DNA of 46,396 nt, taken from Candidatus Zhuqueibacterota bacterium (lineage in GTDB: Bacteria; Zhuqueibacterota; Zhuqueibacteria; Residuimicrobiales; Residuimicrobiaceae). Both the position numbers and the translations under genes were made by a program. This document shows positions 1,328 through 46,396 of the stretch, piece by piece. The notes beneath the pieces are model-generated. The model was not told the DNA's origin, did not search any database, and saw nothing but the letters and a program-made list of their open reading frames with translations. Each line of letters opens with the position of its first letter. Within the stretch, counting starts at the first letter, position 1. Where the stretch lies: positions 1 to 46,396 of the forward strand of contig CAUJEL010000016.1 in NCBI GenBank assembly GCA_963169875.1. Direction: 5' to 3'.

Positions 1328-1365
1328 GCAGCCTGTCCGTAGTTCATGGACAGGCTGCTTTTTTT
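1328..1365 (+). terminator. Rho-independent terminator
   Basis: GCAGCCTGTCC (1328-1338) pairs perfectly with GGACAGGCTGC (1348-1358) around a 9-base loop and is followed at once by seven T (1359-1365). This is a textbook intrinsic terminator on the + strand. It sits between the surface protein and the GH10 gene, so the downstream genes either have their own promoter or depend on read-through, giving high surface-protein and lower enzyme expression. Confidence 0.85.
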
Positions 1366-1399
1366 ATTCATCATCACGCCAAAACCTGTCGAGAAAAAC

Positions 1400-3100: not shown

Positions 3101-3110
3101 AACTTGCCTA

Positions 3111-3145
3111 TACCCTTTCAAAGGCTGCGAGCCTTTGAAAGGGTA
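3111..3145. repeat. Long perfect hairpin between xylanase and esterase genes
   Basis: A 15-bp arm (3112-3126) and its exact complement (3130-3144) flank a GCG loop, with one more T-A pair outside. There is no T-run, so it is not a standard terminator. It begins 11 bases after the xylanase stop and lies just ahead of the esterase ribosome-binding site (AGAAAGG). It could act as an mRNA stabiliser or processing site, or be a REP-like element. Confidence 0.7.
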
Positions 3146-3166
3146 AACACTTAAGAAAGGCTTGTC

Positions 3167-5098: not shown

Positions 5099-5126
5099 CA
5101 AAGGTATAAACGGAGATTATGGCACC

Positions 5127-7400: not shown

Positions 7401-7463
7401 CCGCATCACTAAAAGTATGTCATGTGCGTTACTAATCCAATATAACGAACAAGGAGACACATC

Positions 7464-9011: not shown

Positions 9012-9185
9012 CCGCAGGGTTCAGCATTCGCTGCGTTCTGTCTCAGGTTGAGCTGAACCTCGACTGGTTGACTCATCTCTGAGCTCAGGCCTGATCAAGG
9101 ACTCAAACTGACGGGCTGTCTCCGCGAGTTAGCGGTCAACACCTCAATTCGACTTTGTGCATTGACCTAATGACAGGTGATCAAA

Positions 9186-11063: not shown

Positions 11064-11162
11064 TGCCCGGCGATAAATGACTGGAGTTTTTTAAACAAAA
11101 TAATTATCTTTTGCTCAGGCTGCTGCAGTAATGGTTGATTTTTGATCTTTCAGAAAGCGAAC

Positions 11163-25054: not shown

Positions 25055-25181
25055 TTTTAGCCTCCTGCTCAATATCTCATTTATACTTGATTTTAAGCGC
25101 TGATATTGTTATTGTGTTCAATGATTTTTTCGGGCAAAGATGATCAACTTATTTATCTCTTTCAGGGTAACAGGACAAAAG
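25055..25181. promoter_or_regulatory. Divergent promoter region between esterase and pectinesterase
   Basis: This 127-base AT-rich gap separates two divergently transcribed secreted enzymes and must carry the start signals for both. The SGNH gene has an AGGAGG (complement at 25061-25066). No -10/-35 pair could be assigned reliably. Confidence 0.4.
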
Positions 25182-29507: not shown

Positions 29508-30686
29508 TCACAAATATGCCTTGTTCTTGCGGATCAGATCGATGCGCTGCTGCACACAAGCGGCTGAGCGCAGTGGATCTTCGGGCGTATTTTTGACATA
29601 ATCGATGAGACGGTCCACGGAGGAGACCGCCACGTGCATGCGCGTATCCGACGAGCCGTAGTAGACGAGCACATCGCCGTTGGCGCACGCCACCCAGCCG
29701 TTGCTGAAGGTCACATTGGAAACATCGCCGATGCGTTCCTCGCCGTCCGGTGCGATGAAATAGCCGCCTGGCTTGTGCGTCACACGCCAGGGTTCCAGCA
29801 GATCGGTCATGAACATATAGAGCACATAGCGCAGACCGGCGGCGCAGCCGCGCACGCCGTGGGCAAGATGCAGCCAGCCCTCGGGCGTTTTGATAGGCGC
29901 CGGGCCGAGACCGTTTTTGGCTTCCTTGATGGTATGGTAACGGCGTTCGTCGATGATGATCTCTTTTTCGATGACCGCATTTTCGATATTTTTGCACAAC
30001 CCCCAACCGATGCCACCGCCGCTGCCCGCATCGATGAAATCATCCTGCGGCCGCGTATAAAAGGCGTACTGCCCCTGCACGAATTCGGGGTGCAGCACCA
30101 CATTGCGCTGCTGTGGAGAAGCTGTTTTCAAATCCGGCAACCGCTCCCACTTTTTCAAATCCCTGGTCCGGGCGATGCCGGCCTGGGCCACCGCAGAGGA
30201 CAAGTCTCCCGGTTTGGCGTTGGGATCCTTGCGTTCGCTGCAAAAGACGCCGTAAATCCAGCCATCTTCGTGCACCACCAGTCTCATATCGTAAACATTG
30301 ATGTCCGGATTTTCAGTCTCCGGCATGATAACCGGCTCGTCCCAGAATCGGAACTGATCGATGCCGTTTGGACTCTCGGCCACGGCGAAAAATGATTTGC
30401 GATCCGATCCTTCCACACGCACCATGAGGATGACCTTGCCGTCGTAAAGCATGGCGCCCGAGTTGAAGGCGGCATTGATGCCCATTCGTTCCATCAGAAA
30501 GGGATTGGTAGCCGGATTGAGATCATAGCGCCAGAACAGCGGCGTATGGGCCGCGGTGAGGACGGGATTCTGATAGCGCTGGTAGATGCCATTGAATTCT
30601 TCCACAGGACGATTTCTGCGTTGTATCAGGGAATCAAAGTCCTGCTGCAATATACGTAAACGTGTTTTGAACTCAGTGCCTTCCAT
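29508..30686 (-). CDS. GH130 4-O-beta-D-mannosyl-D-glucose phosphorylase
   Basis: Cytoplasmic phosphorolysis of mannosyl-beta-1,4-glucose to mannose-1-phosphate and glucose. The ATG at 30686 with AGAGGT five bases upstream gives 392 residues and no signal peptide. The sequence follows, by memory, the Bacteroides fragilis enzyme of GH130 subfamily 1 very closely: [45 protein letters not shown] with the proposed general acid Asp near 133, [29 protein letters not shown] and [20 protein letters not shown]. The gene lies 25 bases after the 2-epimerase, the established partner in this pathway. A mannooligosaccharide phosphorylase (subfamily 2) is less likely because of the N-terminal blocks. Confidence 0.95.
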
Positions 30687-30711
30687 ATTGTACCTCTTGT
30701 GCAAATTTTGA

Positions 30712-31938
30712 TTAAATGATGCCGGGAGCAGGTTGTTTGAGGGACTCGAGCCGCCGCATGGCTTCCATGCACGCGCGGCCGTTGTGATAGGGGCATTTCC
30801 ACTCCGAGACCTTGTAGAGCCGAAAATCGGGTTTCAGGTCAGGCCCCACCTTATAGAACCATTCGCCGTTCTCGTGATCGATCAGATAATGATCACAGAA
30901 ATCCCAGACCCGTTCTACTGCTTTGATAAATTTTTCTTGCCTCGAGTTTTGAAAGGCATTGAGAAAACCGACCAGGGCTTCGGCCTGGGGCCACCACTCC
31001 AGATCCTCTTTGAGACTGCCATCCTCTTTGCGTTCGTAGTAGATGCCGCCCTGGGGCGCCAGCGCCTCGGTATAGACCGCCTCTGCAATCGCCACGGTCT
31101 CCTGCCGCACCGTTTCGATCAAGGCGCCATCCTTGAGAACCGCCGCGGCCTCATCCAGCAGCCAGCTCGCCTCGATGTCATGGCCAAAAGAGACATTGGC
31201 GAGGCGGACATTCCACGCCTCATTGAAGAACAGCCGCATGTGGTGGGTGCGCCGGTCGATGATGTGCGATAAAAAATTATCTATGAGTTTACGCAGCCGC
31301 GCCTCCAGCACTTCATTGGGCCAGACGCGATAGAGCTGCGTGTAAGCCTCGAGCATGTGCAGGTGCGTATTCATCGATTTTTTTTCGTTCATGTCGACTT
31401 CACTCAGACGCAAATCCTCAGCCAGCGACCAGTCGCGGTTGGAGGTTTCGAAATAGCCGCTATGAACATGGTCAAAGTTGTGCAGTTCGATCAGATGATG
31501 CAGCTCCACCGCCCGATCCAGCGCCTCTTTTTTATGGGTTGCGCGATAAAACTCCGCCAGACTGTATATGGAAAAGGCCTGGCCATAGATTTTTTTACTG
31601 GTATCCACGGGACGGCCATTTTCGTCCAGCATCCACAACATGCCGCCATGTTCCTCATCCCAGAAATGATTCTGCACAAAAGCATAGGCACGGTCTGCCA
31701 TGGCCAGATAGTGCGGATTATGATAGATATTGTACGCGGCGCTGAAAGTCCAGAGGATGCGGGTGTTGAGAATCAAGCCTTTGGGTGTGCGCTCTTTGAC
31801 CTTCAGGTCGTTGGAGATGCGCGCCCAGAATCCGTCGCTCTCCGGATCGACCACTTCTTTCTCCCAGAAGGGCAAAATATTCTGCAGCAATTCGTTTTCA
31901 ATTCTCCGCTGCAAAGTCTCGATACGGCTACTTTCCAT
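30712..31938 (-). CDS. Mannobiose/cellobiose 2-epimerase
   Basis: Converts beta-1,4-mannobiose to 4-O-beta-mannosyl-glucose (and cellobiose to glucosyl-mannose) in the cytoplasm. The ATG at 31938 gives 408 residues, the family length, with no signal peptide. The (alpha/alpha)6 barrel blocks are [40 protein letters not shown] (His near 194), [12 protein letters not shown] (His near 253), [13 protein letters not shown] and [17 protein letters not shown] (His near 385). The three His residues fit the catalytic set known for cellobiose 2-epimerases. Its start overlaps the end of the GH5 gene by 11 bases and it precedes the phosphorylase, which matches the known mannan pathway. N-acetylglucosamine 2-epimerase activity is unlikely given the partner. 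Confidence 0.93.
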
Positions 31939-33778
31939 AAACCACTTCCACCCTTCCCACCTGTGCTTCCTCGAGAAACGACAGTTTAACATAATGCGTC
32001 CCGGCCGGCAGCGCTGAACTCTGAAACAGCACCGGCGGCAGATAATTATAATCGCCCGTGCCCAGATAATATTTTTGCGTTTCGGCCGCGAGATCCGCAT
32101 AGGTCTGGCCGTCCGCAGATGTGCTGAGGCCGATGGCTTTTTCCGCGGCCTGGGAGAAGAGATAGATTTTCACTGCGGCGGCGTTGCCGGGTGTGTAATA
32201 AACCAGGTGTGCGCCCGGTTTTCCGGCCAGCCGGTGCGCATCTTCCTTGAATGCGCGCGAGTTATCCGTCTCCATGGATAACTCACCGTTGCGGCTGAAG
32301 GCGATGGCAAAATTCCAGCATTCGTCCACCAGGGTTTTGTGTTTTACCGCCACGGGGCCGATGATGTTGGAGGGCTCAGAGCGTCCCGCCGCATTGCGGC
32401 TGCGAACACGATAAAAATAGCTGGAACCGATTTCCGCCGCGTGATCATTAAAGAGCGGCCGGTGCGCGTTTTCCGTGTCGGACACATTATAACCGATGCG
32501 CTGCCACGGACCGTTTTTTCGGGTTGCGCGTTCGATGTCATATCCGGAAGCGCCCACCGCGCCCTGCCAGCTGATTCGGGCTGGATCGTCGAAAGGCAGC
32601 AGCGCCGGAGGTTTGGGCACGGTTAAAACCGGCATTTTTTCCCCGCGAATGGCAAAAGCGCGTTCCTTCATCAATTGCATGACATCGCGTTCGGCATAGT
32701 TTTCGCCGGATATGAACCCGGGCCAATGATAGGCCTTGTAAAAATATCCGCCCAGGCCGGGCTCGGAATGCCAGTAAAAGCCGCCGTCGCGGTTGTGGAA
32801 GCGCAGGCTCCAGATCAGGGCGCCGCAGATGCCTGGATGCGCTTCTGCTTCCTGCAAAACCGCGGCTACGCCCGTGACGCCGATAAACCCGAACTCACCG
32901 ATCAGGTAGGGCTTTTTGCCACGGGCTTTTTCGGCGCTGACGCGGATGATGCGCACCATGTCGCGCGGATCTTTTTCGTAATGATGGGTGGTGATGATAT
33001 CGGTATAGGGATTAACGATGCTCTCATCGCGCAAGCCATATCCGGTATAGCCATCCAGGAGCAAATGATTTTTATCAAGAGATTTGATATAGGCACCCAT
33101 CTCCAGCACCCAGTCATTGGGACTGGCCAGTTCGTTACCGGTTTCCCAGGCGAGAATCGCCTTGTCATCGCGATAGGTCACGCCGGTGATGGTGTTCTTG
33201 CGCGTGATGACGTACTGCAGCGTCTGTTTAAAGTCTTCTTTCAACTGCGGATCGCTCCAGAATTCGTCTGATTTTTTGCCGCGAAAAGCCGCATACTGGG
33301 CGCGGCCGCCCATCCAGGGCCAGTTGTCCACAAAGGGAATGATGATACGCACGCCCACCTCATTGGCGATGGCGAGCATGAGATCCAGAGTCTTGAACGC
33401 CTCTTCGTTAAATTGACCGGGTCCGAGCACATAGGCAGGAATATCAGGGGCATCGTCGCGGCGCACGGTGATGACGTACATGCGCGCCACGGTTCCGCCC
33501 ATCTCCTTGATCGATTCCAGCGCATCGCGCAGCTCGTACGCGTCGGGCAAGCGCCAGGCATTGGTCTGCTCGAACATCATGTTGTCTTCGATGCAGTGCA
33601 GGTTGGGGATGTTGAAGGAGATAAAACGCACGGGCTTCTGTCCGTCCATGAGACGATCGCCGGAGGTGGTGATGAAATGGGAAAAAGCCGATTTGGGCGG
33701 CGCCGCAAAATTTGTTGTCACAAGCGCTAAAACAAGGAGGAAGAGGCTGAAGCGTAAACCAGAGCGGAAATTGGACAT
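31928..33778 (-). CDS. GH5-like beta-mannanase/mannosidase with FN3 and C-terminal beta module
   Basis: A 616-residue exported glycosidase. The ATG at 33778 has AAAGGAG six bases upstream. Signal peptide cut near NFAAP. The barrel (about 30-400) follows GH5_7-like mannanases: RFISFNIPNLH, VARMYVITVRR, acid/base Glu in WETGNELASP (about 216), HHYEKDP, nucleophile Glu in YLIGEFGFIG (about 295). An FN3 module (about 405-490) and a beta-rich end (about 495-616) follow. No T9SS domain; the protein ends VEVVYGK, so a periplasmic place is likely. It is coupled by overlap to the 2-epimerase, which suggests that it supplies mannobiose to that enzyme. A related GH5 subfamily or GH2-like exo-mannosidase role is possible. 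Confidence 0.85.
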   Translation of the reverse strand: MSNFRSGLRFSLFLLVLALVTTNFAAPPKSAFSHFITTSGDRLMDGQKPVRFISFNIPNLHCIEDNMMFEQTNAWRLPDAYELRDALESIKEMGGTVARMYVITVRRDDAPDIPAYVLGPGQFNEEAFKTLDLMLAIANEVGVRIIIPFVDNWPWMGGRAQYAAFRGKKSDEFWSDPQLKEDFKQTLQYVITRKNTITGVTYRDDKAILAWETGNELASPNDWVLEMGAYIKSLDKNHLLLDGYTGYGLRDESIVNPYTDIITTHHYEKDPRDMVRIIRVSAEKARGKKPYLIGEFGFIGVTGVAAVLQEAEAHPGICGALIWSLRFHNRDGGFYWHSEPGLGGYFYKAYHWPGFISGENYAERDVMQLMKERAFAIRGEKMPVLTVPKPPALLPFDDPARISWQGAVGASGYDIERATRKNGPWQRIGYNVSDTENAHRPLFNDHAAEIGSSYFYRVRSRNAAGRSEPSNIIGPVAVKHKTLVDECWNFAIAFSRNGELSMETDNSRAFKEDAHRLAGKPGAHLVYYTPGNAAAVKIYLFSQAAEKAIGLSTSADGQTYADLAAETQKYYLGTGDYNYLPPVLFQSSALPAGTHYVKLSFLEEAQVGRVEVVYGK

Positions 33779-33810
33779 GATCGACTCCTTTATGAGACCA
33801 TTACAATTTG

Positions 33811-35217
33811 TCATCGTTTCAAAACGCTTTCGTACCAGGCATGGATGGGGGCACTGTTTTTGACGATTTTTATCCCCTGGCGCAAACTATCCATATGGGT
33901 TTGCATGATATGCGCCCGTTTCTCCATGAGCGCATCCGGCCGGATTCCTTCCCGTATCTCTGCGAAGGAAATATTGGGCATACTATTTTTGACATGCTTT
34001 TCGAAATATTTATATAAATCTGTATCATCCACGGTGACGTCGGCCAGCAAACTCAGGCGCCGTGCCATCTGCAACTTGTTTTCTTCAAATAAAGAGGTTT
34101 TGATGCGCACCCGCGGATCGCGATCGAAACCCATTTTTCGCGCTTCCTGGGTCAGCGCGCGATCGCGCAGGACATAATCCAGCGCGGTTTTCAGACTCTT
34201 GTACACGCCGTGATAGGGGACATAATTGAGCGCGGCGATGAACTCTGCGACTGTAACCGTTTCGCCGTCAAGCGCTGCCAGCGGCTCGTTGCGTAAATCC
34301 CACAACGAGTTCTCGATCCGTCCCATTTCCAGCTCGGAGAGCTGTTCCACGCGCATCTGGTCGGCGGTGGAAGGCGTACGCTGCAGCAAGGGGCCCAGGG
34401 CAGCGCCGACGCGCTGCAGGGTTTTGGGATAGACCTGGATCTTTTTAGTCTTCATCAGTTCGCCGATGTAAGCCAGTGCCAATTTATCGCCAAGTTTGCT
34501 CTCGAGCACCGCGTGGGCATTGCGCCGCTTGTATAGATAATCCGTTTCAGACAACAAGGGGGGTTTACGCCAATCAACCACCTGGAGGATATGCCAGCCG
34601 TAGCTCGAGGCCACGGGTTGCGAATAGACCTTGAGCGGCAGCGTGAACGCCGTCATGGCGAGATCGTATTCCATCTGTTCCCAGGAGACCCAACCGAGAT
34701 CACCGCCGTTTTCAGCCAGCCGGGTATCGGAAAATGCGAGTCGGGCCAGATCCTCCCATTTCGCGCCCTGTTGCAGCCACTGGTGCAGGCTGTCCGCACC
34801 TGCCTGAGTTTCGCTGAAGAGGTGGCGGATGTGGCGCTCTTCATTCATCCAGGCATAGGTTTTTTCGACATCGGATTCCGCAAAGATGATTTTCGGCTTT
34901 ATCACCTGCTGGTAATGGACCTCGCGCATATTTTTGTCGCGATTGGCGGCAACGCGATAGGTGAAACGTTCATCCTTATCCATGCCCAGCGTTTTGGCAT
35001 CATTGGCGAGAAGCCGGCGTTCGATCATTTCATCCAGAAATTTCTCATGCAGATCTTGAGAGTCAAAAACATTGGGCTGCTTCAGAACCTCGATATAAGC
35101 AGCTTTGTATTCTTCCAGGGTGATGCGGCTCGTGCCGATGGATGCAACCACGGGATCTTTTTTGCTGCAGGCGAGGAAAAGCGAAAGCAGAAAAAAGAGG
35201 GCGAGCAATTTTTTCAT
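33811..35217 (-). CDS. Parvulin-type peptidyl-prolyl isomerase lipoprotein
   Basis: Periplasmic folding helper. The ATG at 35217 starts a lipoprotein signal, MKKLLALFFLLSLFLAC, with the lipid-bearing Cys at residue 17. The 468-residue protein has SurA/PrsA-like architecture: an N-terminal helical part (about 20-125, IERRLLANDAK), a PpiC domain (about 125-220, ERHIRHLF, GGDLGWVSWEQM and YGWHILQVVDWR) and a helical C-terminal part (about 225-468). It sits inside the mannan run, 32 bases before the GH5 gene and after the giant surface protein. Family members normally serve beta-barrel biogenesis, so it may help fold the receptor, the PorV-like protein or T9SS cargo of this locus. Its presence in a glycan locus is unusual. 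Confidence 0.88.
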   Translation of the reverse strand: MKKLLALFFLLSLFLACSKKDPVVASIGTSRITLEEYKAAYIEVLKQPNVFDSQDLHEKFLDEMIERRLLANDAKTLGMDKDERFTYRVAANRDKNMREVHYQQVIKPKIIFAESDVEKTYAWMNEERHIRHLFSETQAGADSLHQWLQQGAKWEDLARLAFSDTRLAENGGDLGWVSWEQMEYDLAMTAFTLPLKVYSQPVASSYGWHILQVVDWRKPPLLSETDYLYKRRNAHAVLESKLGDKLALAYIGELMKTKKIQVYPKTLQRVGAALGPLLQRTPSTADQMRVEQLSELEMGRIENSLWDLRNEPLAALDGETVTVAEFIAALNYVPYHGVYKSLKTALDYVLRDRALTQEARKMGFDRDPRVRIKTSLFEENKLQMARRLSLLADVTVDDTDLYKYFEKHVKNSMPNISFAEIREGIRPDALMEKRAHIMQTHMDSLRQGIKIVKNSAPIHAWYESVLKR

Positions 35218-35250
35218 GTTCGAGAACAACGGATACGACTCCAAATTGTT

Positions 35251-35276
35251 CGTTCCCAAGCTGGAGCTTGGGAACG
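35251..35276. repeat. Palindrome, first of a three-hairpin cluster
   Basis: CGTTCCCAAGCT (35251-35262) and AGCTTGGGAACG (35265-35276) are perfect complements around GG. Palindromes of this CCCAAGCT/AGCTTGGG type occur as dispersed repeats in several environmental bacterial groups (general recollection, not checked). Confidence 0.75.
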
Positions 35277-35423: not shown

Positions 35424-38400
35424 CTACTTAATAATCAACAACCTTCCCGTGGTGACGCCCACACCAGGCGCATCGATGTGGTAGATGTAAACTCCGTAAC
35501 TGATGTCCATGCGGTCCTTGGTGAGCAAATCCCACTCTTCGGAGCCATCGGTCATGGGCGAATCGTGCTCAAGGGTATTCACCAGGGTGCCATCCACGGC
35601 GAAAATGCGAATGGTGCATTTTTGCGGCAAATGGATGAACTGCACGGAACGCGGGCCGCGGCCGCTGGTGTACGGGTTGGTCGGTTCCCAGGACGCGGTG
35701 ACCACATAGGGATTCGGCACGACCTTGATCTTGTCCAGGCTCGTCCTGGCCGCTGTTTGATCGACATCCTGACCGCGGACGACAAATTGATAGCGTACGT
35801 TGCCGGTGAAGGGAAAATCGGGATAGACGTTGAGCGTATCGCCGGCGCCGAGTCCACGGCCATAGGCGTTCCAGAACGTTGTATCCTCCAACGCCTTGGC
35901 TTCGATCTGATACGTAATCATCGTTGAATCGTTTGCTAGCTTTTCAAATAATATGATGCGATCCTTGGCGGAGAAAAATCCAGCTTTTGCCTTTTTCGGA
36001 GTGGTGGTTAAATCGATAAAGGCATAGGGCAATTCCTCACCGGACTGTTTGTCAAATACCCTGAAATTGGCATTCACGGCCGGCGCAGGTATTTTTTTAT
36101 TGCCGGTTGACAACGGCACCAGGAGCAAATCCGATTTTTTCACAATTTCATCATAAAAAACGATCATGTACTGGCGGGGATAATAATAACCATCCCTGAA
36201 CCCGCCCCATTTGAATATATCGAATGCAATCTTGTAGGCGCTGGAGTAATCGATATTCTGACTCCATTGCACGCCGCTGTAGATGCGATCTTCGGGTCTG
36301 TTGATCAATCCCTCCGGTGGATTGTAGATGGAAAGTTCCATGCCGTGCAAAACGGTCTTGAGTGTGCGCGGGTCGCCGTCATTGTCTGCATAGAGATTTT
36401 TGACCTCGACGATCTGGTCCACCTGAAACTGGCGGTCGATGAACATGACGGTGTCTTCCGGCTGAGAGTCGTTGCTGAGATTTCTCAGCACCAATCCGGT
36501 GGTTTCAGTCGGCAGAAGCTCGTCAACGTCTGCGCCATCGACCAGGCCATCAAGATCGTTGTCATGGCGATCCATGGCCTTGTCGAGGAACTGTACCTCA
36601 TAGCGGTCGCCGTCCCTGATCTGATAGGGATCGACATAGCGCACGCTGACAGATCCGGAGGTTTTGCCCGTACCCTGCAACCGCGGCTGTTCATCCAGTC
36701 CGGGGCCTTTGTATCCAAGCGCCGGCGCCTGGGGCACCACCGCCACGGTATTGTCACCGGTGCGGATCTCGCCGGAGGCGTCCACCGCGATGTACATATT
36801 GGTCTCCGCGGGGGCGATATTCTTTTCCGGATCGCCGCGGTCGTACGCGGTGACGGCATAGAAATAGCGTTTACCGTTGACGAGCGGTGAATCCACATAG
36901 GTGTGCACCAGGCCGGTTTCGCTGCCGAGATTGAACTGGATGCCGGTGCCAAAGGTATTTTCGAAGAATCCGAACACGCTGTCGACCTTGTCGAAAATGG
37001 CCAGGGGTTTGGTGAAGCGGGTGTAGCCATAGCCGTCGGTGATGGCGCCGGCATCGGAGAAGCCGGGATCTGTGGCGCGATAGATCTTGTAGCCCTCAAA
37101 ATCGTATTCGTGCAGATAGCGGTCGACGCTGTCTTCTGCGCGCGCATCCCAGTACAGCGTGACTTTCTTGTCGCCGGCCACGGCGCGCAGCAACGGTTTT
37201 TCCGGCGCCACGGCAAAATTATAGTTCGAGTTGTAGATCTTTTGCACGATATCCTTGTTGCGCATGATATCTTCCTGGTCCCAGCCGTAAATCATGGCCA
37301 CCGAGAAGAACTCCTGCTGTTGCGGCGCCAGCGGGAAATAGCCGCACGAGAAGGCATAATCGGCATCGACGTTTTCGAGATGACTGTCGAAAAATCCCGG
37401 GCGCACATTTTCCCACCACTGGGCGTCATTATCATAACGCAGGGTTGAGGTGTATTCAAAGAAGATAAAGCTGGTAAGACCGATCTGATCCGACTCATCC
37501 ACATCGGTATGATCCACATTGGGTTCGCCGGGAAGTTCACCGATGCCGGCCGTGGGCATGCCGTCGCCTTCGCCGGTGTCGCCGGTGCCGCTCTTGCCGT
37601 CCATGCCGAGATCATCGGTGCGGAAATCCCAGTCGCCGTCATTATCGATACCGTCATCGCGGCGTTCATCGATCATGGGATTGTTGATGCCGGCGCCGGT
37701 GAGATAGTCGATCGCCAGATAATCGCGATTATTGTATTGCGGATCGCGAATGTAGAGATAATATTTCATGGAATCCGGCGCCACAGCGCCGTCCGATTCA
37801 TCGATGAAACCGTTGAGGTTGTCATCGATGCCGTTGCGCTCGATTTCAATCAACGGGGCATTGGGCTTCTTCAGATAAGAGAGTCCATTGAAATGAATGC
37901 GCACGCCTTCGGCGGGCATGGTGGAAACCGTACGCGTATAGTGCGGCGTGAGATAATCGATCAGCACAATGGGATCACCGACGGCATAGCTTTTGCGGAA
38001 ATCCTCGGTGGTGATGAGATGGCCGTCTCCGCTTGCGTATCCGTCCCCGTCGTTATCGATGCCATCCTTGGCATTGCCAGGGCTTTCGAGAAAAGCGAAG
38101 CCGACCCATGGCACCGGGCTATAGCCACCGGTACCGACGGATGGATTACCCCAATCATAATTGACCGTCAGATCGATCTCGCGATAGAAGGTGGCGCAGT
38201 CATCGTCATAGTCGGTGTTCTCCCCCACCTTGGCGCCGATGGAAGCGCCCACGTTGAGCGCAAAAACCGTTTTGGCGTGATTGAGTTCGCCGATGTTTTT
38301 CATATAATAGATGAGAAAGATGCAGTCCTGGGCATCGGGGTTGGACCACTGCAGACCGCGTACCAGCTGGCGCAGCCCCAGACCGCCGCGCTGCGGCTGA

Positions 38401-39047
38401 CCGGGGATGGGTTTGGGCATGGGATACCCGGAGACGACCTTTTTATAAGTATAGTCATCCACGGCGTAATAGCTCTCTTCATCGGCGTTCTTCTGGTCCT
38501 TGCCAAAGTAGCCGTTCCAGTGACCGCCCCATCCGGGATTGAACGGATCGTCCAATTTATCAGGCCAGGAGGCCGGCCAGGTGAAGGCCTGATGGCTCAT
38601 GGCCACGGCGTGCAGCGGGTCTTTTTCCTTGTTGGCGATGTTGTAATAACCGGGCAGGGGTTCAAAACCCAGGAAGGACCCGGTGAGAGAATCCTTGGAG
38701 AAGATATTGGGATCCCAACCCTGACAAAAAGCGGCGGGGGTAATATACGTATACGTCGAATCTCCGGTGGAGTCCAGGCCGGCGAAGACGCGCAGCTCGG
38801 ACATGACAAAGCTGGAGGCGTTGCCCATCTGCACCATGCCCGAATTGATGGGCCATTCGCCGGCATAAAAGAGGCTGTTATCCCCCTTCTGCGCGCCGAG
38901 CATGCCATGGTTGTGAAAGGTGACGCGGATGAGGTTGCCTGCGTGGGTGTTGCGGGCGCGATATTGTGCACTGCCGTGCTGATCCTGGGCGCTGGCACAG
39001 GTCCACAGCGCGGCAAGAGTCAGTATGAGCAAAATACGATATTTCAT
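35424..39047 (-). CDS. Giant Asp-rich surface protein with FN3 module and divergent T9SS domain, unknown function
   Basis: A 1207-residue exported protein I cannot assign to an enzyme family. Signal peptide cut near CASAQ. The N-terminal 600 residues form one large beta-rich region with Asp-rich loops of thrombospondin type-3/EF-hand style: DGIDNDGDGYASGDG (about 328-342), NGIDDNLNGFIDE (about 405), DDGIDNDGDWDF (about 464), and another DNDLDGLVDGADVDE later. These loops probably bind calcium. An FN3 module lies at about 615-755 (GYKIYRATDPG, YFYAVTAYDRGD). The last 110 residues, with VVPNPYVVTASW, IRIFAVDGTLV, YGVYIYHI and GRLLIIK, are a divergent T9SS sorting domain. It sits 24 bases after the PorV-like gene and downstream of the receptor. 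By position it may replace SusD as the surface glycan-binding or scaffold partner. Confidence 0.8.
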   Translation of the reverse strand: MKYRILLILTLAALWTCASAQDQHGSAQYRARNTHAGNLIRVTFHNHGMLGAQKGDNSLFYAGEWPINSGMVQMGNASSFVMSELRVFAGLDSTGDSTYTYITPAAFCQGWDPNIFSKDSLTGSFLGFEPLPGYYNIANKEKDPLHAVAMSHQAFTWPASWPDKLDDPFNPGWGGHWNGYFGKDQKNADEESYYAVDDYTYKKVVSGYPMPKPIPGQPQRGGLGLRQLVRGLQWSNPDAQDCIFLIYYMKNIGELNHAKTVFALNVGASIGAKVGENTDYDDDCATFYREIDLTVNYDWGNPSVGTGGYSPVPWVGFAFLESPGNAKDGIDNDGDGYASGDGHLITTEDFRKSYAVGDPIVLIDYLTPHYTRTVSTMPAEGVRIHFNGLSYLKKPNAPLIEIERNGIDDNLNGFIDESDGAVAPDSMKYYLYIRDPQYNNRDYLAIDYLTGAGINNPMIDERRDDGIDNDGDWDFRTDDLGMDGKSGTGDTGEGDGMPTAGIGELPGEPNVDHTDVDESDQIGLTSFIFFEYTSTLRYDNDAQWWENVRPGFFDSHLENVDADYAFSCGYFPLAPQQQEFFSVAMIYGWDQEDIMRNKDIVQKIYNSNYNFAVAPEKPLLRAVAGDKKVTLYWDARAEDSVDRYLHEYDFEGYKIYRATDPGFSDAGAITDGYGYTRFTKPLAIFDKVDSVFGFFENTFGTGIQFNLGSETGLVHTYVDSPLVNGKRYFYAVTAYDRGDPEKNIAPAETNMYIAVDASGEIRTGDNTVAVVPQAPALGYKGPGLDEQPRLQGTGKTSGSVSVRYVDPYQIRDGDRYEVQFLDKAMDRHDNDLDGLVDGADVDELLPTETTGLVLRNLSNDSQPEDTVMFIDRQFQVDQIVEVKNLYADNDGDPRTLKTVLHGMELSIYNPPEGLINRPEDRIYSGVQWSQNIDYSSAYKIAFDIFKWGGFRDGYYYPRQYMIVFYDEIVKKSDLLLVPLSTGNKKIPAPAVNANFRVFDKQSGEELPYAFIDLTTTPKKAKAGFFSAKDRIILFEKLANDSTMITYQIEAKALEDTTFWNAYGRGLGAGDTLNVYPDFPFTGNVRYQFVVRGQDVDQTAARTSLDKIKVVPNPYVVTASWEPTNPYTSGRGPRSVQFIHLPQKCTIRIFAVDGTLVNTLEHDSPMTDGSEEWDLLTKDRMDISYGVYIYHIDAPGVGVTTGRLLIIK

Positions 39048-39071: not shown

Positions 39072-40142
39072 TTAGAGCGATAAAATAAGCGAAAATTTGT
39101 TCTGTTTATCGAGGACGCCAAAATCGATGGAGGCATAGTCAAAGATGATTTCGGTGTTGAGCACATTCAACTGCAGCCCCATGCCCATGGTCAGCCCGCC
39201 TTCGGCATCTTCCAGCAGAAGCTGACGGTAGCCGGCACGTAGATAGACCATGTGTTTGAAGGCATATTCAGCGCCGACGTTCAGATACTCCTTGTTGTCA
39301 CTGGGATGAATGGCGTCGACGGCCACGATGAGATCATGATCCTTCATGGCGAAAAAGTCCTCCGCCAGATTGGCCGAGATGCCGACGCGGAAAAGAACAG
39401 GCAGAGGGAACTCATCGGTGGAGAGTTGGGCGTTGATGTTGCCGTTGTTGCCCTTGCTGGTGACATCGATATCGTGCTGTACCAGCATGTCGCGGCCATC
39501 GATGCGCATGTCCGAGCCGAAATTGGAGATGGACATGCCGATGCGCATGTTCTTGAAAAAGGTGCGGTATTGCAGACCAATGTCAGCCGCCAGTCCGCTG
39601 GCATGGCTGTGCCAGATGGTTTCGCGGATCATCTTGGCCGTGCCGCCGATGCTGAAGCGGTCGGTCAAGGCGCGGGCATAGCTGATCCCGGCGGACATGG
39701 AGTAGGCAGTCACCATCTCGCCGGTTCCTTCGGGCATGCTCACCGTGGTGCGCTCGATATCCGGCATGCCGAGATAGGAGAAGAAAAATCCAAAGGTGCC
39801 CACATTTTGCACCGGCACCGCAATGCCCGCATACTCGAATTGCATGTCCACCAGATAATCATAGTGGTTGAACAGGATTTGCATGCGCTGCAGATTGGCC
39901 AGACCGGCCGGATTCCAGAACAGGGCGGTGACATCTTGCGCCTGGGTCGAGACCGCCTCGCCCATGCCGAGGGCGCGGGCGCCCACGCCGATCTTGAGAA
40001 AAGCGGCAGAACTGGTGCCCACACCGCTGATTTTCTGCCCGAGCACCGGCGCCACTTGCGCCAAAACAAGCAGCAGAACGGCCATCCCAAAGATGAGAGG
40101 CTTGTGCGTCATTCGCCGCTGGATGATTTTCATAGCGTTCAT
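39072..40142 (-). CDS. PorV/PorQ-type outer-membrane beta-barrel protein
   Basis: The ATG at 40142 has GAGGA seven bases upstream and gives 356 residues. Signal peptide cut near PVLGQ. The mature start KISGVGTSSAAFLKIGVGARALGMGEA, followed by VTALFWNPAGLANLQ, is the hallmark of the UPF0164/PorV-PorQ family (FadL-like barrels). The C-terminus alternates hydrophobic strands to the end (NKFSLILSL). In T9SS bacteria PorV shuttles cargo from the translocon to the attachment complex. Here the gene is packed between a TonB-dependent receptor (19-base gap) and a giant T9SS cargo (24-base gap), which suggests a dedicated cargo or receptor partner and not the housekeeping copy. A FadL-like uptake channel is the alternative. 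Confidence 0.88.
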   Translation of the reverse strand: MNAMKIIQRRMTHKPLIFGMAVLLLVLAQVAPVLGQKISGVGTSSAAFLKIGVGARALGMGEAVSTQAQDVTALFWNPAGLANLQRMQILFNHYDYLVDMQFEYAGIAVPVQNVGTFGFFFSYLGMPDIERTTVSMPEGTGEMVTAYSMSAGISYARALTDRFSIGGTAKMIRETIWHSHASGLAADIGLQYRTFFKNMRIGMSISNFGSDMRIDGRDMLVQHDIDVTSKGNNGNINAQLSTDEFPLPVLFRVGISANLAEDFFAMKDHDLIVAVDAIHPSDNKEYLNVGAEYAFKHMVYLRAGYRQLLLEDAEGGLTMGMGLQLNVLNTEIIFDYASIDFGVLDKQNKFSLILSL

Positions 40143-40161: not shown

Positions 40162-43100
40162 TTATTTGCTGAGACGCAATCCAAATTGAATAAACCGCGG
40201 CGAGGAGAAATTGCCCGGACGGGTGAAATATTCGCCGACACTGGAGATTTCAAGATCGGGCGTGCCGGGACGGTCGACCTGATTGACGCCCTGCAGGGTG
40301 TAATCGGGTTGACCGGTATCGGAGTAAATGCCCGTGGCGTTCCGGGTATCGAGCAGGTTGGTGATATTGCAGAACACCTGCGCCCGGATGGAACCGATGT
40401 TGATATTGCGGCCGATGCGTAGATCGATGTTATAGGTCATGGGCTTGCGCTCGCTGTTCTCACGCAATCCGGTGAAAGTGCTGGAACCGGACACTTCACC
40501 GCGGGCAAAGGAAGGCGTATAGGGCAAGCCGGAATTGATGGAGCCGATGAGGCTGCCAATCCAGCCGCGATTGGAATAGCTAAAGACCGTGTTGAGGGAC
40601 TGGCGCTGATCCCAGTTGAGGTTGATCATCTGGATGCGCGGCGCCTCATTGCCCATGGCCGCATAATAGGCGTCCTGGGGATTGGACGAGGTGCCTTTGG
40701 CCGTCATATAGGTGTAATCGAGGTTGATGGCCAGTTTGTTCAATCGATATCCCGCTGAAAAGGTCAGACCTTTGGCCGCGGCGTGATCCTTGTTGACAAA
40801 CTTGTAATAGGTCATGCCCTGGTAAGTGTCAATGGGTTCACCCGTGCCCACCCAATCGCGGATGTCGCGATAGAAACCGGTCAGGTGCATGTAGAGTTCC
40901 GGTGTCAGCTGTTGCTGCAAACCGATTTCGTACATGACCGTGCGCTCGGCGTTCAGATCCGCATTGCCCACCAGATTGGTGGCGCCGGCGCCCTCAACCC
41001 AGAAGTTGGGATTGTCATAGAGAAAACTCATCTGCGGATTCTGGAAGAACCATCCATAGGAGAAGTGAATGACACCCTGTTCGGTGATGGGAAATGAGAG
41101 GCCGAAACGGGGGCTGAGCTGCGATTTGGCCTTGGCTTTCTTGTACCAGAACGCCTGTCGTTCGGCGATGCTGTATTCGACCAGCTCGCTGTCGGGCATG
41201 GTGGGGGTATAGTTTTTGTAGATGTGATCGAATTTGAAGGGCCGGTATATCTGCGGATCCATGGGATCGGCGAGCACGCGGCCATCGGGATCGAAATAGT
41301 CGTAGCGCAGTCCGATATTGATGATCAGCTCGTTGAACTCGATCTTGTCCTGGACGTACGCAGACAGCTCTTTCGGCTTGGCGATGTATTTGACATGATA
41401 GGGAGAATTTTCATTTGGGACCCAGGGCCGGAAGGTCGCGTCGGAGAACTGCAACTGGTACCAGTCGTTGCGCAAATCATTGAGCGTGGCGGCCGCGCCC
41501 ATCTTGATGAGATGGCGTTTGGTGACCTGACTCGTCAAGTCGAGACTGTAATTGAAATAGGAGACATCGTTCTTGCCCATATCGGTTGAATTGCCGAAAT
41601 AAGTAAAGTCATTGGACCGGGTGATGATGGAAATATCATTACCCGTGGTGCGGCCGTAGACGTACTGCTCCAGCAGACCCGCCTCGTTGGGCATGTAACG
41701 CGGATCGGACGGATCCTCATAGAGGAAATTCTTGTGGGCCTTTTTATAGTAGTTGGCCTTGAAATCGATGAACGTGCGCGTGGACGGCACATATTTGGCA
41801 GAAAAAATATGCGTCTGGCTGCGGGTGTTGTAATATTTACCGGCATCCGGGACGTATTTATAATCCCAGCCCACACCGTAACTGCGATCATAGTTATAAT
41901 AAAAGCCATAGGAGAGTTTCAGTTTCGAAGAGGCATCGAAAAAAAGTTTGGATTGAGACGAGTATCCCTTGTACCATCCCAGTGGCACCAGCGCGTTATC
42001 AGGTTCAGCAAAGGTGTGCACCGTGTCGCTCACCGGCGACTGGAAGCCCCAGGGCATGAAATAACGCACCCCGTGGGTGAACGAGGGCGCGTTCTGATAA
42101 CGGCCCGAAACATAGTAGGTCAACTTTTTGCTGGTGAGCGGAATGGGACCGGAGAGGTTGACCTGAAAATCGGTATTGGTGGTTGGATCATAGTTTTCCA
42201 GATAAGAGTCGCGGGTCAGCCACGGTTTGGTGGCCTGTGCTTCTTCGCTGTAGGGATTGACGCCGCCGAAGTCGTAGCGGATGAAGCGGTTACGGCGCGT
42301 CATGGCCTGCGCCGCGGCGTTGGCCCAGGTGGCATTGCTCATGACATAGTAGGTGTCGTCATCGAAGCTGAGATGATCACCCACATATCCCGTGGCATTG
42401 ATGCGAAACTCCTCGCTGCCCTGTTTGGTGACGATATTGATGACACCGGAGAGGGCCTGGCCGTACTCGGCGTTGAAGGTTCCGGTGATGGTCTTGAGTT
42501 CCTGGATGGACTGGTCGTCAATGCTGATGCCCGCGGAACGGCTGAGGGGATCGACCACCTTGACGCCGTCCACCATGTAGGTGATTTCACTGGTGCGTCC
42601 GCCACGGATGTGGAGATTGCCACCATCATCGGTGACCACGCCGGCCTGCAAGTTGACCAGTTCACCGACGCTGCGCACCGGCAGCACATCGATCTTGTCG
42701 GCGCCAAAGGAAACCTGGGACGAAGTCAAATCTTTTTGAACCTGGACGCGGTCAGCCACCACATCGATCGTCTCGCCGCTCTCCAGGACTGTGCTTGATA
42801 ACCTGATATCCGCCTTGGTGGTGAGATCAACGCTGACGTGGATCTGGCTCTTGCTGACGGATTGATAGCCGATATAGACGAATTTGACCGTATAGATGCC
42901 CGGTTTGACGTTGATGATAAAGTATTCGCCGTTGGGATCGGTGACAGCGCCCTGAATGCCCGATCCGCTGAGGGAAATGGCGCGGCCGCTTTCCCAACGT
43001 TCGATGATCATCACATTGGCGCCGATGAGGGGCTGACCGTTGGCGGCATCGGTCACGCGCCCGGCAATCTTGCCGGTTTCGCCGGCGAACAGCGCGGATG

Positions 43101-43164
43101 CGAAAAGCAGCGATATCACCAGGAGCAGGACCGCTCTCTTCTCTCTCCTGAAACCTTTGATCAT
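40162..43164 (-). CDS. TonB-dependent receptor with carboxypeptidase-like N-terminal domain
   Basis: Outer-membrane energised transporter, probably for mannan oligosaccharides. The ATG at 43164 has GGAGG four bases upstream and gives 1000 residues. Order: signal peptide (1-27), carboxypeptidase regulatory-like beta domain (about 30-123, GKIAGRVTDAANGQPLIGANV), TonB box ETIDVV (about 131-136), plug (about 145-255, LHIRGGRTSEITYMVDGV) and a 22-strand barrel ending in Phe-rich strands (FIQFGLRLSK). It is SusC-like in layout but lacks the usual SusC plug signature, and no SusD gene follows. Downstream are the PorV-like and giant surface protein genes. Upstream is the glycan-binding protein, across a 300-base structured spacer. 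Confidence 0.92.
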   Translation of the reverse strand: MIKGFRREKRAVLLLVISLLFASALFAGETGKIAGRVTDAANGQPLIGANVMIIERWESGRAISLSGSGIQGAVTDPNGEYFIINVKPGIYTVKFVYIGYQSVSKSQIHVSVDLTTKADIRLSSTVLESGETIDVVADRVQVQKDLTSSQVSFGADKIDVLPVRSVGELVNLQAGVVTDDGGNLHIRGGRTSEITYMVDGVKVVDPLSRSAGISIDDQSIQELKTITGTFNAEYGQALSGVINIVTKQGSEEFRINATGYVGDHLSFDDDTYYVMSNATWANAAAQAMTRRNRFIRYDFGGVNPYSEEAQATKPWLTRDSYLENYDPTTNTDFQVNLSGPIPLTSKKLTYYVSGRYQNAPSFTHGVRYFMPWGFQSPVSDTVHTFAEPDNALVPLGWYKGYSSQSKLFFDASSKLKLSYGFYYNYDRSYGVGWDYKYVPDAGKYYNTRSQTHIFSAKYVPSTRTFIDFKANYYKKAHKNFLYEDPSDPRYMPNEAGLLEQYVYGRTTGNDISIITRSNDFTYFGNSTDMGKNDVSYFNYSLDLTSQVTKRHLIKMGAAATLNDLRNDWYQLQFSDATFRPWVPNENSPYHVKYIAKPKELSAYVQDKIEFNELIINIGLRYDYFDPDGRVLADPMDPQIYRPFKFDHIYKNYTPTMPDSELVEYSIAERQAFWYKKAKAKSQLSPRFGLSFPITEQGVIHFSYGWFFQNPQMSFLYDNPNFWVEGAGATNLVGNADLNAERTVMYEIGLQQQLTPELYMHLTGFYRDIRDWVGTGEPIDTYQGMTYYKFVNKDHAAAKGLTFSAGYRLNKLAINLDYTYMTAKGTSSNPQDAYYAAMGNEAPRIQMINLNWDQRQSLNTVFSYSNRGWIGSLIGSINSGLPYTPSFARGEVSGSSTFTGLRENSERKPMTYNIDLRIGRNINIGSIRAQVFCNITNLLDTRNATGIYSDTGQPDYTLQGVNQVDRPGTPDLEISSVGEYFTRPGNFSSPRFIQFGLRLSK

Positions 43165-43205
43165 ACTTCCTCCAATCAGATGAAAAGACTTGGCACGCAT
43201 TTAAA

Positions 43206-43464: not shown

Positions 43465-46396
43465 TTACTTTAACAGGGTCATTTTCATGATGCGGTTGTA
43501 CTCAGGCGTCTTCATGCGGCAGAAGTACATGCCGGTGGGAAGTGCCTGGCCGCTCTCGTCTTTGCCGTCCCACTGAATCGTGTAGGTGCCAGCATTCCTG
43601 GTGGCATTGACCAGAGTGCGAACCTGTTTTCCCAGCAGGTTATAAACGACCACCTGAACGTCGGTTTTGGCGGCCAACGAATAGGTGATGGTGGTGCTGG
43701 GGTTGAACGGGTTGGGATAGTTGTTGTTGAGTTTGAACTCCAGAGGCTGCGCCACTGGTTTCTCTTCGACGGCCGTCGGACCACCGACCACTTCGAGGAA
43801 ACCAAAGGTGCTCGGGCGTTTCCAGTCTTCCGAGTTGGCGGTGTTGCCCCAACCGGTCCACAGGGTGCGCTCGGTATCGCCGCCGGCCGGATCCATATCC
43901 GTGCCATCGATGCGCAGCGGCAGCAAGGCGCCGTCAACAACCTGAAGGTCGCCGCCCTTGGCCAATGAATCGAGCGCAATGCGGACTTCGATGATGTAGC
44001 CATCGCCGGTGAATTTCTGATACACCGTGCGTTCCACGCCCGGGAATTCGAAATCAGAAGAACCGCTCTTCTGGGTGGCACCCCAGGCGGTGAAGCTGAT
44101 GCGCCAGTCGCCGGTACCAGGCAGATCAACATCCTTGTACTTGTGGGGCTGTGCTTCGGTCACTGTATTGTAAAAACCAAGGTAGAACTCGAGCGCATCA
44201 CCCATCCATGCCTGGCTGCCGGAAACCACCGGCTCGTTGCCATTGGCATTGATGTCGTTATCGGTGACATCCGCGGAGATGTAGAGAAAGTTGTCATCGA
44301 TGATGAAAGTGGCGTTCCAGGACATATCCGGGGACTCCGGCGTCCAGCCCGTGGTATCAGAGCCGTTATGACGTTCGGCTTTGAGGCCGTACTGTTTGTA
44401 GTCGGTGAACTCGGTGTCCAGTCCATCCAATGAGAAAACATTGGCAAAGTCCTTCACGTACGTCGCCCTGGCGGGCGCGCTGGTGGTGCAGGTGAGCGGA
44501 CCGACGGCGGAATTGGGGCCGAGATCGTATTCCGTGCCGCTGGCATCGACCGCGGTGACGGCAAAATAGCGCGTCACTTCGGCGGACTTGCTGGAATAGG
44601 GACGGAAAGCGTAATACTGCGTGCCGTGGGCGACGGCATCGCCGATGAGTTTTACGCCGGGTGCGGTGACATCGGTGATCGGCGCATCACTCATGTAAAC
44701 GTTATAGGTTTCCGTACCGATTTCATTGTCTTCCCAGGTGATGTTGAAGAGCTGGAAAACCGCGCCGGCTGTGGTAACGGTGTTGACTTCGCCGGTGATG
44801 GCTGGAGAAGCCACCTGGCCTTCGGGCTCGGCAACGCCCACGAGGGTGACGTTGTCATAGTAGATTGAACCAACCCAGTTGTTGGGCACATTGTAGTAGA
44901 TTTGCGAACCCATGGTGAGAACAGCCTTGGGATTTAATTCACCCGAGGCGACGTACTTCATGACATCATAGGTCATGGTATTCCATTTACCCGGCATGAA
45001 GGTGGAATCGTTCAGGAAGAAGGATTGTTCCGTCCAGGTCCAGGTGGCATGATCCATGGCGAAGATGGAGATCTGCGCGCCGAGTGGGGCATCCGCTGGC
45101 ACCCACACATCCATGGTGATGGCGGTGGCGCCGGTATCGGTGTCCGTCCAGCCAAGGTTGACATTGGTGTTGTCGAAGGAGCCTTTTTTGCCGTTATCCG
45201 GGGCTTTGCTGAAATCCCAGTCGGTTTTCAGCACACCCAGGGTGCGGCCGGAGGGATCGGCAGCCTGGGCGACGCCGACCAGGGCTGCGCCCCAGCCGTT
45301 ATTGACAAAGCCCTGCGTGCCGCCGGAGGCTTTTTCAAAACTGCCAACAACCCATTTTTCGCCCACTTCGAGCGTATGCAGCTTAAAGTTGTCGATCAGG
45401 ACATTTCCGGCCCAGGTCTGGCCTTCGCCGAAATAGACTTCCAGACCGCCTTTTACATGCAACCATGGATCGAAATTGGGCCAGGTGCTCGTGGCCAGTT
45501 TCACCGGGTAATGGATGGTGCTCCACTTGCCGGCTTGAATGCGTTCGCCTTCGCTGGAGATGGAGAATTTGTAATCGGTCCATTGCCAGGAACCTTCGGC
45601 AACCTGCATCCACAATTTGACGACGGCATTGGCCGGGAAATCAGCCGGGACAAATACGTCGAAGGTCGCCATGTAAGCGCCTTCGGCGGTCTCGGACTCC
45701 CACAAAAAGTCCACGGGATCGGTGCCAATGGCGGCCTTGTAATCGCTTTTCGAGGCATCGCAAGCCAGCGTCAGGACCTGATTGGTCGCATCGGCCGGAT
45801 CAGGATCGAGGGCGAGACTCAACGCGGAGCCGCCCCAATAGATGCCAAAGCTGGTGTTGTCGCCGCTGAAATCTGAAACCACCACGGGGTCGACGCCGAC
45901 CAGTGCGAAGTTATCGATGAGCACATCGCCGGCAAAACCCGCGGAACTCTTGTCGCTCGGGTAGTAGATTTCCATGCCGCCCTTGATTTTCAACCAGGGC
46001 TGGAAGTTGGCATAAATGCCCATGAAATAGCGCACCGGATAGTGGATGGTGACCCACTGGCCGGCTTTGATATGCAAGCCTTCGCCGGCAATGGAGTATT
46101 TATAGTCGGTCCATTGCCAGGCGCCTTCGGCGATCTGGGCCCAGATTTTAATCACCGCGGAATCGGGAAAATCAGTGGGCAGATAGATATCGAAGGTGAA
46201 AAATTCGGCGCCCGGCGCATCTGCGGAGAGCCAGCCCAGGGGCAGGGGATCGACGCCGATGGCAGCTTTGCCGTCACCGGCGGCGGCGACACAAGCCAGT
46301 TTCATGACGCCCGTGGTACGTCCGGTCGGATCCGCCGCCTGCGTCAGCGACGTGAGGGCATCGCCCCAGAACTTGCCGAAACCCTGGGTGCCAGCA
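43465..46396 (-). CDS. Surface glycan-binding protein: three tandem modules, FN3, CBM9-like, T9SS domain (5' end outside window)
   Basis: The frame stays open to the right edge, so the start is missing; 976 residues are visible. Three tandem modules of about 165-175 residues (minus strand: edge-45894, 45893-45366, 45365-44830) share WQWTDYK/WTWTEQS, AGKW-TIHYPV and NVLIDNF blocks and look like beta-sandwich carbohydrate-binding domains. The first two are closest to each other. An FN3-like module (about 530-650) and a CBM9-like domain (about 655-885; WNATFIIDDNFLYISADVTD, AWMGDALEFYLG, YIIEVRIALDSL) follow. The end is a T9SS sorting domain (NNYPNPFNPST). No catalytic motif is visible. It lies upstream of the receptor gene, in the position of a surface glycan-binding protein. 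An enzyme domain further upstream cannot be excluded. Confidence 0.85.
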   Translation of the reverse strand, partial: AGTQGFGKFWGDALTSLTQAADPTGRTTGVMKLACVAAAGDGKAAIGVDPLPLGWLSADAPGAEFFTFDIYLPTDFPDSAVIKIWAQIAEGAWQWTDYKYSIAGEGLHIKAGQWVTIHYPVRYFMGIYANFQPWLKIKGGMEIYYPSDKSSAGFAGDVLIDNFALVGVDPVVVSDFSGDNTSFGIYWGGSALSLALDPDPADATNQVLTLACDASKSDYKAAIGTDPVDFLWESETAEGAYMATFDVFVPADFPANAVVKLWMQVAEGSWQWTDYKFSISSEGERIQAGKWSTIHYPVKLATSTWPNFDPWLHVKGGLEVYFGEGQTWAGNVLIDNFKLHTLEVGEKWVVGSFEKASGGTQGFVNNGWGAALVGVAQAADPSGRTLGVLKTDWDFSKAPDNGKKGSFDNTNVNLGWTDTDTGATAITMDVWVPADAPLGAQISIFAMDHATWTWTEQSFFLNDSTFMPGKWNTMTYDVMKYVASGELNPKAVLTMGSQIYYNVPNNWVGSIYYDNVTLVGVAEPEGQVASPAITGEVNTVTTAGAVFQLFNITWEDNEIGTETYNVYMSDAPITDVTAPGVKLIGDAVAHGTQYYAFRPYSSKSAEVTRYFAVTAVDASGTEYDLGPNSAVGPLTCTTSAPARATYVKDFANVFSLDGLDTEFTDYKQYGLKAERHNGSDTTGWTPESPDMSWNATFIIDDNFLYISADVTDNDINANGNEPVVSGSQAWMGDALEFYLGFYNTVTEAQPHKYKDVDLPGTGDWRISFTAWGATQKSGSSDFEFPGVERTVYQKFTGDGYIIEVRIALDSLAKGGDLQVVDGALLPLRIDGTDMDPAGGDTERTLWTGWGNTANSEDWKRPSTFGFLEVVGGPTAVEEKPVAQPLEFKLNNNYPNPFNPSTTITYSLAAKTDVQVVVYNLLGKQVRTLVNATRNAGTYTIQWDGKDESGQALPTGMYFCRMKTPEYNRIMKMTLLK

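Follow-up and report, generated by a model that had tools for sequence, protein, structure and literature searches.

A gene trio of TonB-dependent receptor, type IX-tailed surface protein and PorV/PorQ-family barrel as a candidate counterpart of SusCD in Candidatus Zhuqueibacterota

Which surface protein stands beside a SusC-like receptor where SusD is missing? The textbook system for the import of complex glycans is SusCD. In the related phyla examined here, SusD is absent or present in few copies, yet SusC-like receptors are many. The question is raised by a window of 46,396 nucleotides from a Candidatus Zhuqueibacterota bacterium (the whole stretch of DNA that was analyzed; contig CAUJEL010000016.1 of assembly GCA_963169875.1), in which a SusC-like TonB-dependent receptor, an outer-membrane barrel of the PorV/PorQ family and a 1207-residue protein with a type IX secretion system (T9SS) tail, referred to here as P, are encoded in a row. 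The initial annotation had put P forward as a SusD replacement. SusD forms the lid over its SusC-like receptor (PMC7618045). The reading somewhat favored here is that P is the extracellular substrate-capture subunit of an import module made up of receptor, P and barrel, equivalent to the SusD lid in function but not homologous to it.

Roughly 20 genes of the P family are present in the genome, a set obtained from an initial genome search, the surroundings of its matches and iteration of the profile. Nearly all of them share a strand with an adjacent TonB-dependent receptor and an adjacent PorV/PorQ-family gene. Such a gene immediately adjoins at least 16 of the 19 P-family tails that lie clear of contig ends (PorV/PorQ family), whereas a hand count found three such cases (C23, C116 and C10) among the ∼130-150 ordinary T9SS-tailed genes. 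Chance adjacency was rejected on the basis of a Fisher test on this hand-made count (p = 7e-16) and of 80 loci from other genomes, none of which is a counter-example. The module partner barrels that match NF033709 number 16 of 16, and the barrel in the window scores higher with the PorQ model than with the PorV model. The PorV-like neighbor is part of the system and not the mere flanking gene that the initial annotation had taken it for. Shorter paralogues (600-760 residues) keep some blocks of the N-terminal domain, the FN3 domain and the tail of the family, and the loop-bearing insertion is absent from them. One contig (C115; loci L053 and L054) carries three tandem pairs of receptor and tailed protein with apparently one PorV-family gene in the array.

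The trio moves as one unit. Across 17 modules of this one genome the distances of the three proteins agree (Mantel r of 0.88 for receptor and P, 0.84 for receptor and barrel, and 0.74 for P and barrel; p = 5e-5 each), in spite of at least one change in gene order: receptor-barrel-P is found in the window and on contig C62, and receptor-P-barrel in most other modules. When the barrel is controlled for in the 14 modules with untruncated genes, a partial correlation of 0.53 between receptor and P is retained.

Scanning a single genome for each species recovered more than 560 relatives of P, and the loci of the best 80 were analyzed. These lie in records of Calditrichota, KSB1, Ignavibacteriota, Neomarinimicrobiota, WOR-3, Stahlbacteria, Fermentibacteria, Gemmatimonadetes, Kryptonium, Rhodothermales and Balneolales. 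The complete trio, with receptor and barrel flanking P, was found in 67 of the 80; in the other 13 the view is cut by a contig end (12 flagged by script and L084 by inspection). This pattern bears on an alternative role for P, that of a surface glycan-binding or tethering protein similar to SusE or other surface glycan-binding proteins (SGBPs), which would be anchored by the barrel near a lidless receptor and concentrate polysaccharide locally. Linkage and mannan context fit a tether equally, the elongated string of FN3/Ig domains suits one, and SGBPs are known as mobile grapplers in utilisomes (PMC7618045). However, each receptor has a single obligatory partner, without exception in the 80 loci, which is SusD-like rather than typical of the variable SGBPs, and the strong co-inheritance of receptor and P also speaks against a tether, which is considered unlikely.

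The distribution of SusD also speaks for a capture role of P. No SusD gene occurs in the genome of the window, where PF07980 and PF14322 are both absent. The P family is present in 67 of the 69 genomes of the same phylum; PF07980 is absent from 42 of the 69, and the remaining 27 hold one to five copies, a finding that led to the rejection of strict mutual exclusion between module and SusD. Across phyla, 32 of 40 module-bearing genomes have no PF07980. From these counts it follows that the module is the commoner receptor partner in these genomes, without excluding SusD. The SprA translocon exceeds its cut-off in 38 of the same 40 genomes. In many of them (G002-G038) a short segment of the SprA profile (∼604-680) also matches an ORF (open reading frame) of 990-1210 residues elsewhere. 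A broader proposal is that several phyla of the Fibrobacterota-Chlorobiota-Bacteroidota (FCB) group outside the classical Bacteroidia pair their TonB-dependent polymer importers chiefly with a T9SS-exported lid family that is unrelated to SusD and permanently held by its own PorV/PorQ-like barrel, a system of three proteins that would have converged on SusCD. This generalization is tentative and falls a little short of an even chance. No paper naming the module was found in a literature search of partial coverage, and a description may exist elsewhere.

What kind of protein is P? The Asp-rich 1207-codon ORF of the initial annotation is real and lies on the minus strand, which had been left unsaid: it opens with an ATG at 39047 preceded within a few bases by AAGGAG, a clear ribosome-binding site, and the plus-strand frame over the same interval is broken by stops. 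A signal peptide is followed by an N-terminal region of ∼590 residues, an FN3-like domain, more Ig-like domains and a T9SS C-terminal domain (CTD). Sequence searches with full-length P returned nothing from Pfam (E up to 10), NCBIfam or PDB, the single Pfam row at E=1.7 being noise. The N-terminal ∼600 residues, described at the outset as matching no known domain, matched no family in Pfam, NCBIfam or PDB, whether P itself or a profile of the family's N-terminal region was used. No confident match of this region to an enzyme or to a housekeeping surface protein, which had been named as the outcome that would tell against a SusD-like role, was found. Membership in the SusD/RagB family (PF07980, PF14322) was rejected, as P has no profile match to it, a beta fold and no lipobox; a lipobox-like motif occurs within the first 60 residues of just one of 104 family members.

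The N-terminal region is predicted to fold as a single beta-rich unit (AlphaFold2, mean pLDDT 90.5, pTM 0.90). In the fold comparison called for by the initial annotation, the top Foldseek matches of this all-beta domain are mainly carbohydrate-active enzymes, among them dextran dextrinase, cyclic glucan synthase, a PL26 lyase and cellobiose phosphorylase; SusD does not appear in the listed top 50 PDB matches. PorZ is likewise not among the matches listed for this domain, and no propeller protein heads the list. An unrecognized surface carbohydrate-active enzyme, in which the all-beta N-terminal domain would be catalytic and define a new family, is suggested by the GH15-, GH94- and PL26-type enzymes among the top matches and by invariant acidic and Trp residues. 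The matches are weak, however (TM-scores 0.12-0.29), short paralogues retain just parts of the domain, and ∼20 divergent copies with the same partners fit no enzyme profile, which makes a catalytic P improbable. The matched enzymes have a beta-supersandwich domain in common; because of this and of the low TM-scores, the matches read as a likeness of the beta-sandwich core and not as homology. P as a known enzyme or lectin was rejected on the same searches, and the statement that it has no recognizable enzyme motif holds, as no enzyme profile matched in Pfam or NCBIfam.

The calcium-type Asp-rich loops, of which at least four had been reported, number five by a simple motif scan and exceed chance: 2000 composition shuffles gave 0.63 on average and 5 at most. 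The Asp positions of loop 1 are 93-100% conserved over 81 homologues. Because the key aspartates are so highly conserved across these homologues, the loops are genuine features of the family. Calcium may play a role in them. In one paralogue (C40; L039:6839-10486) the loop segment (profile positions 444-500) is duplicated at residues 809-860, as if it were a mobile insert.

The C-terminal half is modeled as a string of FN3/Ig-like domains ending in the T9SS tail (mean pLDDT 90.7), and its fold matches include FN3/Ig strings and PorZ. The FN3 module proposed earlier is weakly borne out: these matches and a comparison of the family profile with an FN3 structure (E=0.04) favor it, there is no Pfam FN3 hit in P, and the block is among the best conserved of the family.

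How P would be held at the surface depends on its tail. P combines a signal peptide with a C-terminal Ig-like CTD homologous to type A tails, and the divergent T9SS domain with PNPYVV that had been described is present as VVPNPYVV; VVPNPY, which occurs in 93 of 104 family members, stands in place of the canonical NYPNPFNP-type motif. With a profile of 20 module tails, its own members reach 103-154 bits, and the best of the remaining tails in the genome has 56 bits. Because of this gap, the P-family tails are a separate class within the genome, homologous to yet distinct from its NYPNPFNP tails (hhalign 97.4%). At E<0.01, 19 of 20 module tails match the NCBIfam PorZ model (NF052228), in short stretches below the model's full-length cut-off, and 11 of 20 match the type A signal TIGR04183, compared with 3/12 and 12/12 among ordinary tails from this genome. 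The tail of P itself is the exception among the 20, with PorU as its only listed match (E=0.006) and no TIGR04183 match. As judged from these profiles, the module tails resemble the retained PorZ tail more closely than the signal of cleaved cargo.

It might be argued that P is ordinary T9SS cargo, that the barrel is a transient shuttle, that PorU cleaves the tail before P is anchored to lipopolysaccharide (LPS) or released, and that receptor import is unrelated, the linkage being regulatory. SprA and PorU are both present in the genome, the latter as a full sortase (C172), and the module tails are homologous to those of ordinary cargo. Set against this are the PorZ-like character of the module tails, the near absence of private PorV-family neighbors from ordinary cargo genes of the same genome, and the use of a single PorV by all type A cargo in Bacteroidota (PMC12618676); a mere shuttle is accordingly very doubtful. 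Absence of the sortase was rejected as a cause of tail retention. Very long PorU-like proteins (1600-1900 residues) are also encoded on C10, C178 and C18 (L071:6031-10887), that on C10 adjoining a PorV-family gene, which hints at sortase paralogues that have a barrel of their own.

The substrate is suggested by the surroundings of P. The neighbors in Table 1 lie on the minus strand, as P does, in the order CBM9 protein, receptor, barrel, P, peptidyl-prolyl isomerase (PPIase) and onward (Table 1). P is indeed placed, as described initially, between a PorV-like gene matching NF033709 and a PPIC-type PPIase. The start of the barrel gene at ATG 40142 was judged from sequence, its frame being open to 40253. 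GH26 enzymes are endo-mannanases and GH130 enzymes mannoside phosphorylases; together with a mannobiose epimerase they are expected parts of a beta-mannan locus. The window holds two GH26 genes, GH130, the epimerase and the DUF5060 glycoside hydrolase along with the transporter, the composition of a beta-mannan polysaccharide utilization locus. Orthologues of P with 60-76% identity in other lineages have GH26, GH5, epimerase, GH130, GH2 mannosidase or LacI genes nearby in varying combinations, and the CBM9 and PPIase genes likewise recur around them in several lineages.

Table 1. Features of the window in and around the gene for P
Feature	Position	Strand	Basis
P, 1207-residue T9SS-tailed surface protein	35424..39047	-	ORF and translation; no Pfam/NCBIfam/PDB sequence match
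P: Sec signal peptide, residues 1-20 (MKYRILLILTLAALWTCASA), without lipobox	38988..39047	-	direct reading
P: N-terminal domain, ∼residues 22-610, predicted compact, beta-rich, globular	37218..38984	-	AlphaFold2, 81-sequence alignment
P: Asp-rich loop 1, residues 328-336 DGIDNDGDG	38040..38066	-	D331, D333, D335 invariant in 81 homologues
P: Asp-rich loop 2, residues 405-413 NGIDDNLNG	37809..37835	-	D408, G413 96% conserved each
P: Asp-rich loop 3, residues 465-472 DGIDNDGD	37632..37655	-	D468 98%, D472 89% conserved
P: FN3-like domain, ∼residues 612-760 (DFEGYKIYRATDP...YFYAVTAYDRG)	36768..37214	-	invariant alignment columns; FN3/Ig fold matches
P: Asp-rich loop 4, residues 829-834 DNDLDG	36546..36563	-	motif scan
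P: Asp-rich loop 5, residues 888-892 DNDGD	36372..36386	-	motif scan
P: C-terminal T9SS-type tail, ∼residues 1101-1207 (KVVPNPYVV...GRLLIIK)	35427..35747	-	20-member tail profile; PorZ-like 19/20
CBM9 protein, canonical T9SS tail	43465..46305	-	profile match; same place in L072, L075, L076, C15, C140
TonB-dependent receptor, SusC-like: N-terminal CarboxypepD_reg, plug, barrel	40162..43200	-	PF13620, PF07715, PF00593 over cut-off
PorV/PorQ-family outer-membrane barrel	39072..40142	-	NF033709, 204 bits vs cut-off 90
PPIC-type peptidyl-prolyl isomerase, SurA-like	33811..35259	-	profile match; conserved beside this orthologue group
628-residue protein	31928..33814	-	same-place gene in L072 matches GH5 (PF00150)
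Cellobiose/mannobiose 2-epimerase-like protein	30712..32100	-	Pfam and NCBIfam
GH130 beta-mannoside phosphorylase-like protein	29508..30704	-	Pfam
DUF5060 glycoside-hydrolase-like protein, canonical T9SS tail	26515..29331	-	Pfam
GH26 beta-mannanase-like protein	19823..21739	-	sequence match
Second GH26 protein, canonical T9SS tail	15210..18107	-	sequence match

Several neighbors deserve comment in their own right. In several modules (L041:1264-4701, L042:630-3236 and that of the window) and in orthologous loci, the gene immediately upstream of the receptor encodes a CBM9 protein whose T9SS tail is of the ordinary kind; this protein may be a fourth, looser component. PPIC-type isomerase genes lie near two modules, that of the window and another (L039:3740-5479). 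The beta-barrel assembly (BAM) complex of Flavobacterium includes a subunit of PPIase fold (PMC12611786); by analogy, module-linked chaperones are possible. A second polysaccharide cluster, on the plus strand (2-12770 and 25140-26267), encodes a GH43 protein with CBM6, a SASA esterase, a beta-helix protein and a pectinesterase, a content that suggests hemicellulose or pectin use.

Taken together with these genes, the capture role of P can be laid out as a pathway. P is made with a Sec signal peptide, as is evident from its sequence, and would be exported by the SprA translocon through its C-terminal T9SS domain; the genes for this export are present. Its own PorV/PorQ-like barrel would then grip the tail, which would stay uncleaved and fix P to the surface permanently, in the way PorQ holds PorZ, a step argued for by the tail class, the adjacency of the genes and this precedent. 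The all-beta N-terminal domain might sit over the TonB-dependent receptor, stiffened by the calcium-type Asp loops and spaced by the FN3/Ig domains, and there capture beta-manno-oligosaccharides released by the neighboring GH26 enzymes and pass them to the receptor. As the locus content suggests, epimerase, GH130 and mannosidase would complete the breakdown inside the cell. The sister modules of the same genome presumably serve other substrates.

Several observations weigh against this reading. Two tandem modules on contig C115 have no barrel of their own, and on C139 the P gene lies several kb from the receptor. The partial Mantel correlation between tail and barrel is just 0.11 once the receptor is controlled for (14 modules with untruncated genes), and a specific co-evolution of tail and barrel beyond common inheritance found no support. 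Module and SusD coexist in some genomes, and for the N-terminal domain the similarity to known folds is low. The export route in practice, localization at the surface, a lasting hold of the barrel on the tail, contact of P with the receptor, its binding of mannan and a role of calcium are inferred. With a full PorU in the same genome the tail of P could be cleaved as in ordinary cargo, so its retention is not a necessity.

A SusD-like role of P is nonetheless plausible, and the original hunch is right in direction and too narrow. The lack of SusD in the genome, the linkage to TonB-dependent receptors in this genome and in 80 loci, the co-inheritance with the receptor and the conserved mannan context all stand behind it. 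What does not stand is the picture of a single replacement protein: the unit is a three-gene module, and P is no singleton, being one of ∼20 paralogues in such modules.

If the proposal is true, a three-protein module of the FCB group joins protein secretion with nutrient uptake. Glycan import by these environmental polymer degraders would be explained by a conserved trio that uses another surface partner and anchors it by way of the T9SS, and the PorV/PorQ-family genes that these genomes have in excess would gain a role. The trio also makes testable the published idea that cognate PorV-like barrels shield the tail from the sortase (PMC10202324).

The module can be set beside four known systems. 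With SusC/SusD of Bacteroidota it shares a TonB-dependent receptor with CarboxypepD_reg and an obligatory neighboring surface protein, many paralogous pairs per genome and a polysaccharide-locus context. In contrast to SusD with its alpha-helical, TPR-type fold, P is a predicted all-beta, non-homologous protein that is no lipoprotein and has a T9SS tail, and the module includes a third gene of the PorV/PorQ family.

In Porphyromonas gingivalis, PorQ anchors PorZ and PorV anchors PorU on the surface (PMC5562754). The CTDs of PorZ and PorU are uncleaved, and their cognate PorV-like barrels have been suggested to protect the tails (PMC10202324). The module would likewise have the retained CTD of a secreted protein held by a PorV/PorQ-family barrel, and its tails match the PorZ model best, a PorZ-like CTD being coupled to a PorV/PorQ-family partner. 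The two beta-propellers of PorZ and its role in the delivery of anionic lipopolysaccharide (A-LPS) were not found in P, whose predicted N-terminal region is no propeller; P also lies outside the sortase machinery, is linked to a TonB-dependent receptor and occurs in many copies per genome.

Dedicated barrels are also known for type B tails (PMC12618676, PMC9143113). As with the type B substrates and PorP/SprF of Flavobacterium, a dedicated barrel gene for secretion and anchoring lies beside each substrate gene. Here, however, the barrel is of the PorV/PorQ family, the tail is type A/PorZ-like, a TonB-dependent receptor belongs to the unit, and the substrates, adhesins in Flavobacterium, apparently serve nutrient uptake.

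A further parallel is found in the alginate locus of Rhodothermus marinus, reported in 2022, where tonB-hypA-hypB encode a receptor, a T9SS type A protein and a PorV/PorQ protein in a row (PMC9530828). The trio was given there as annotation only, with no function proposed (PMC9530828). It is apparently a module of the same kind, hypA being likened to P by annotation and gene order alone, and as R. marinus is cultured, its alginate locus offers a bench model for the trio.

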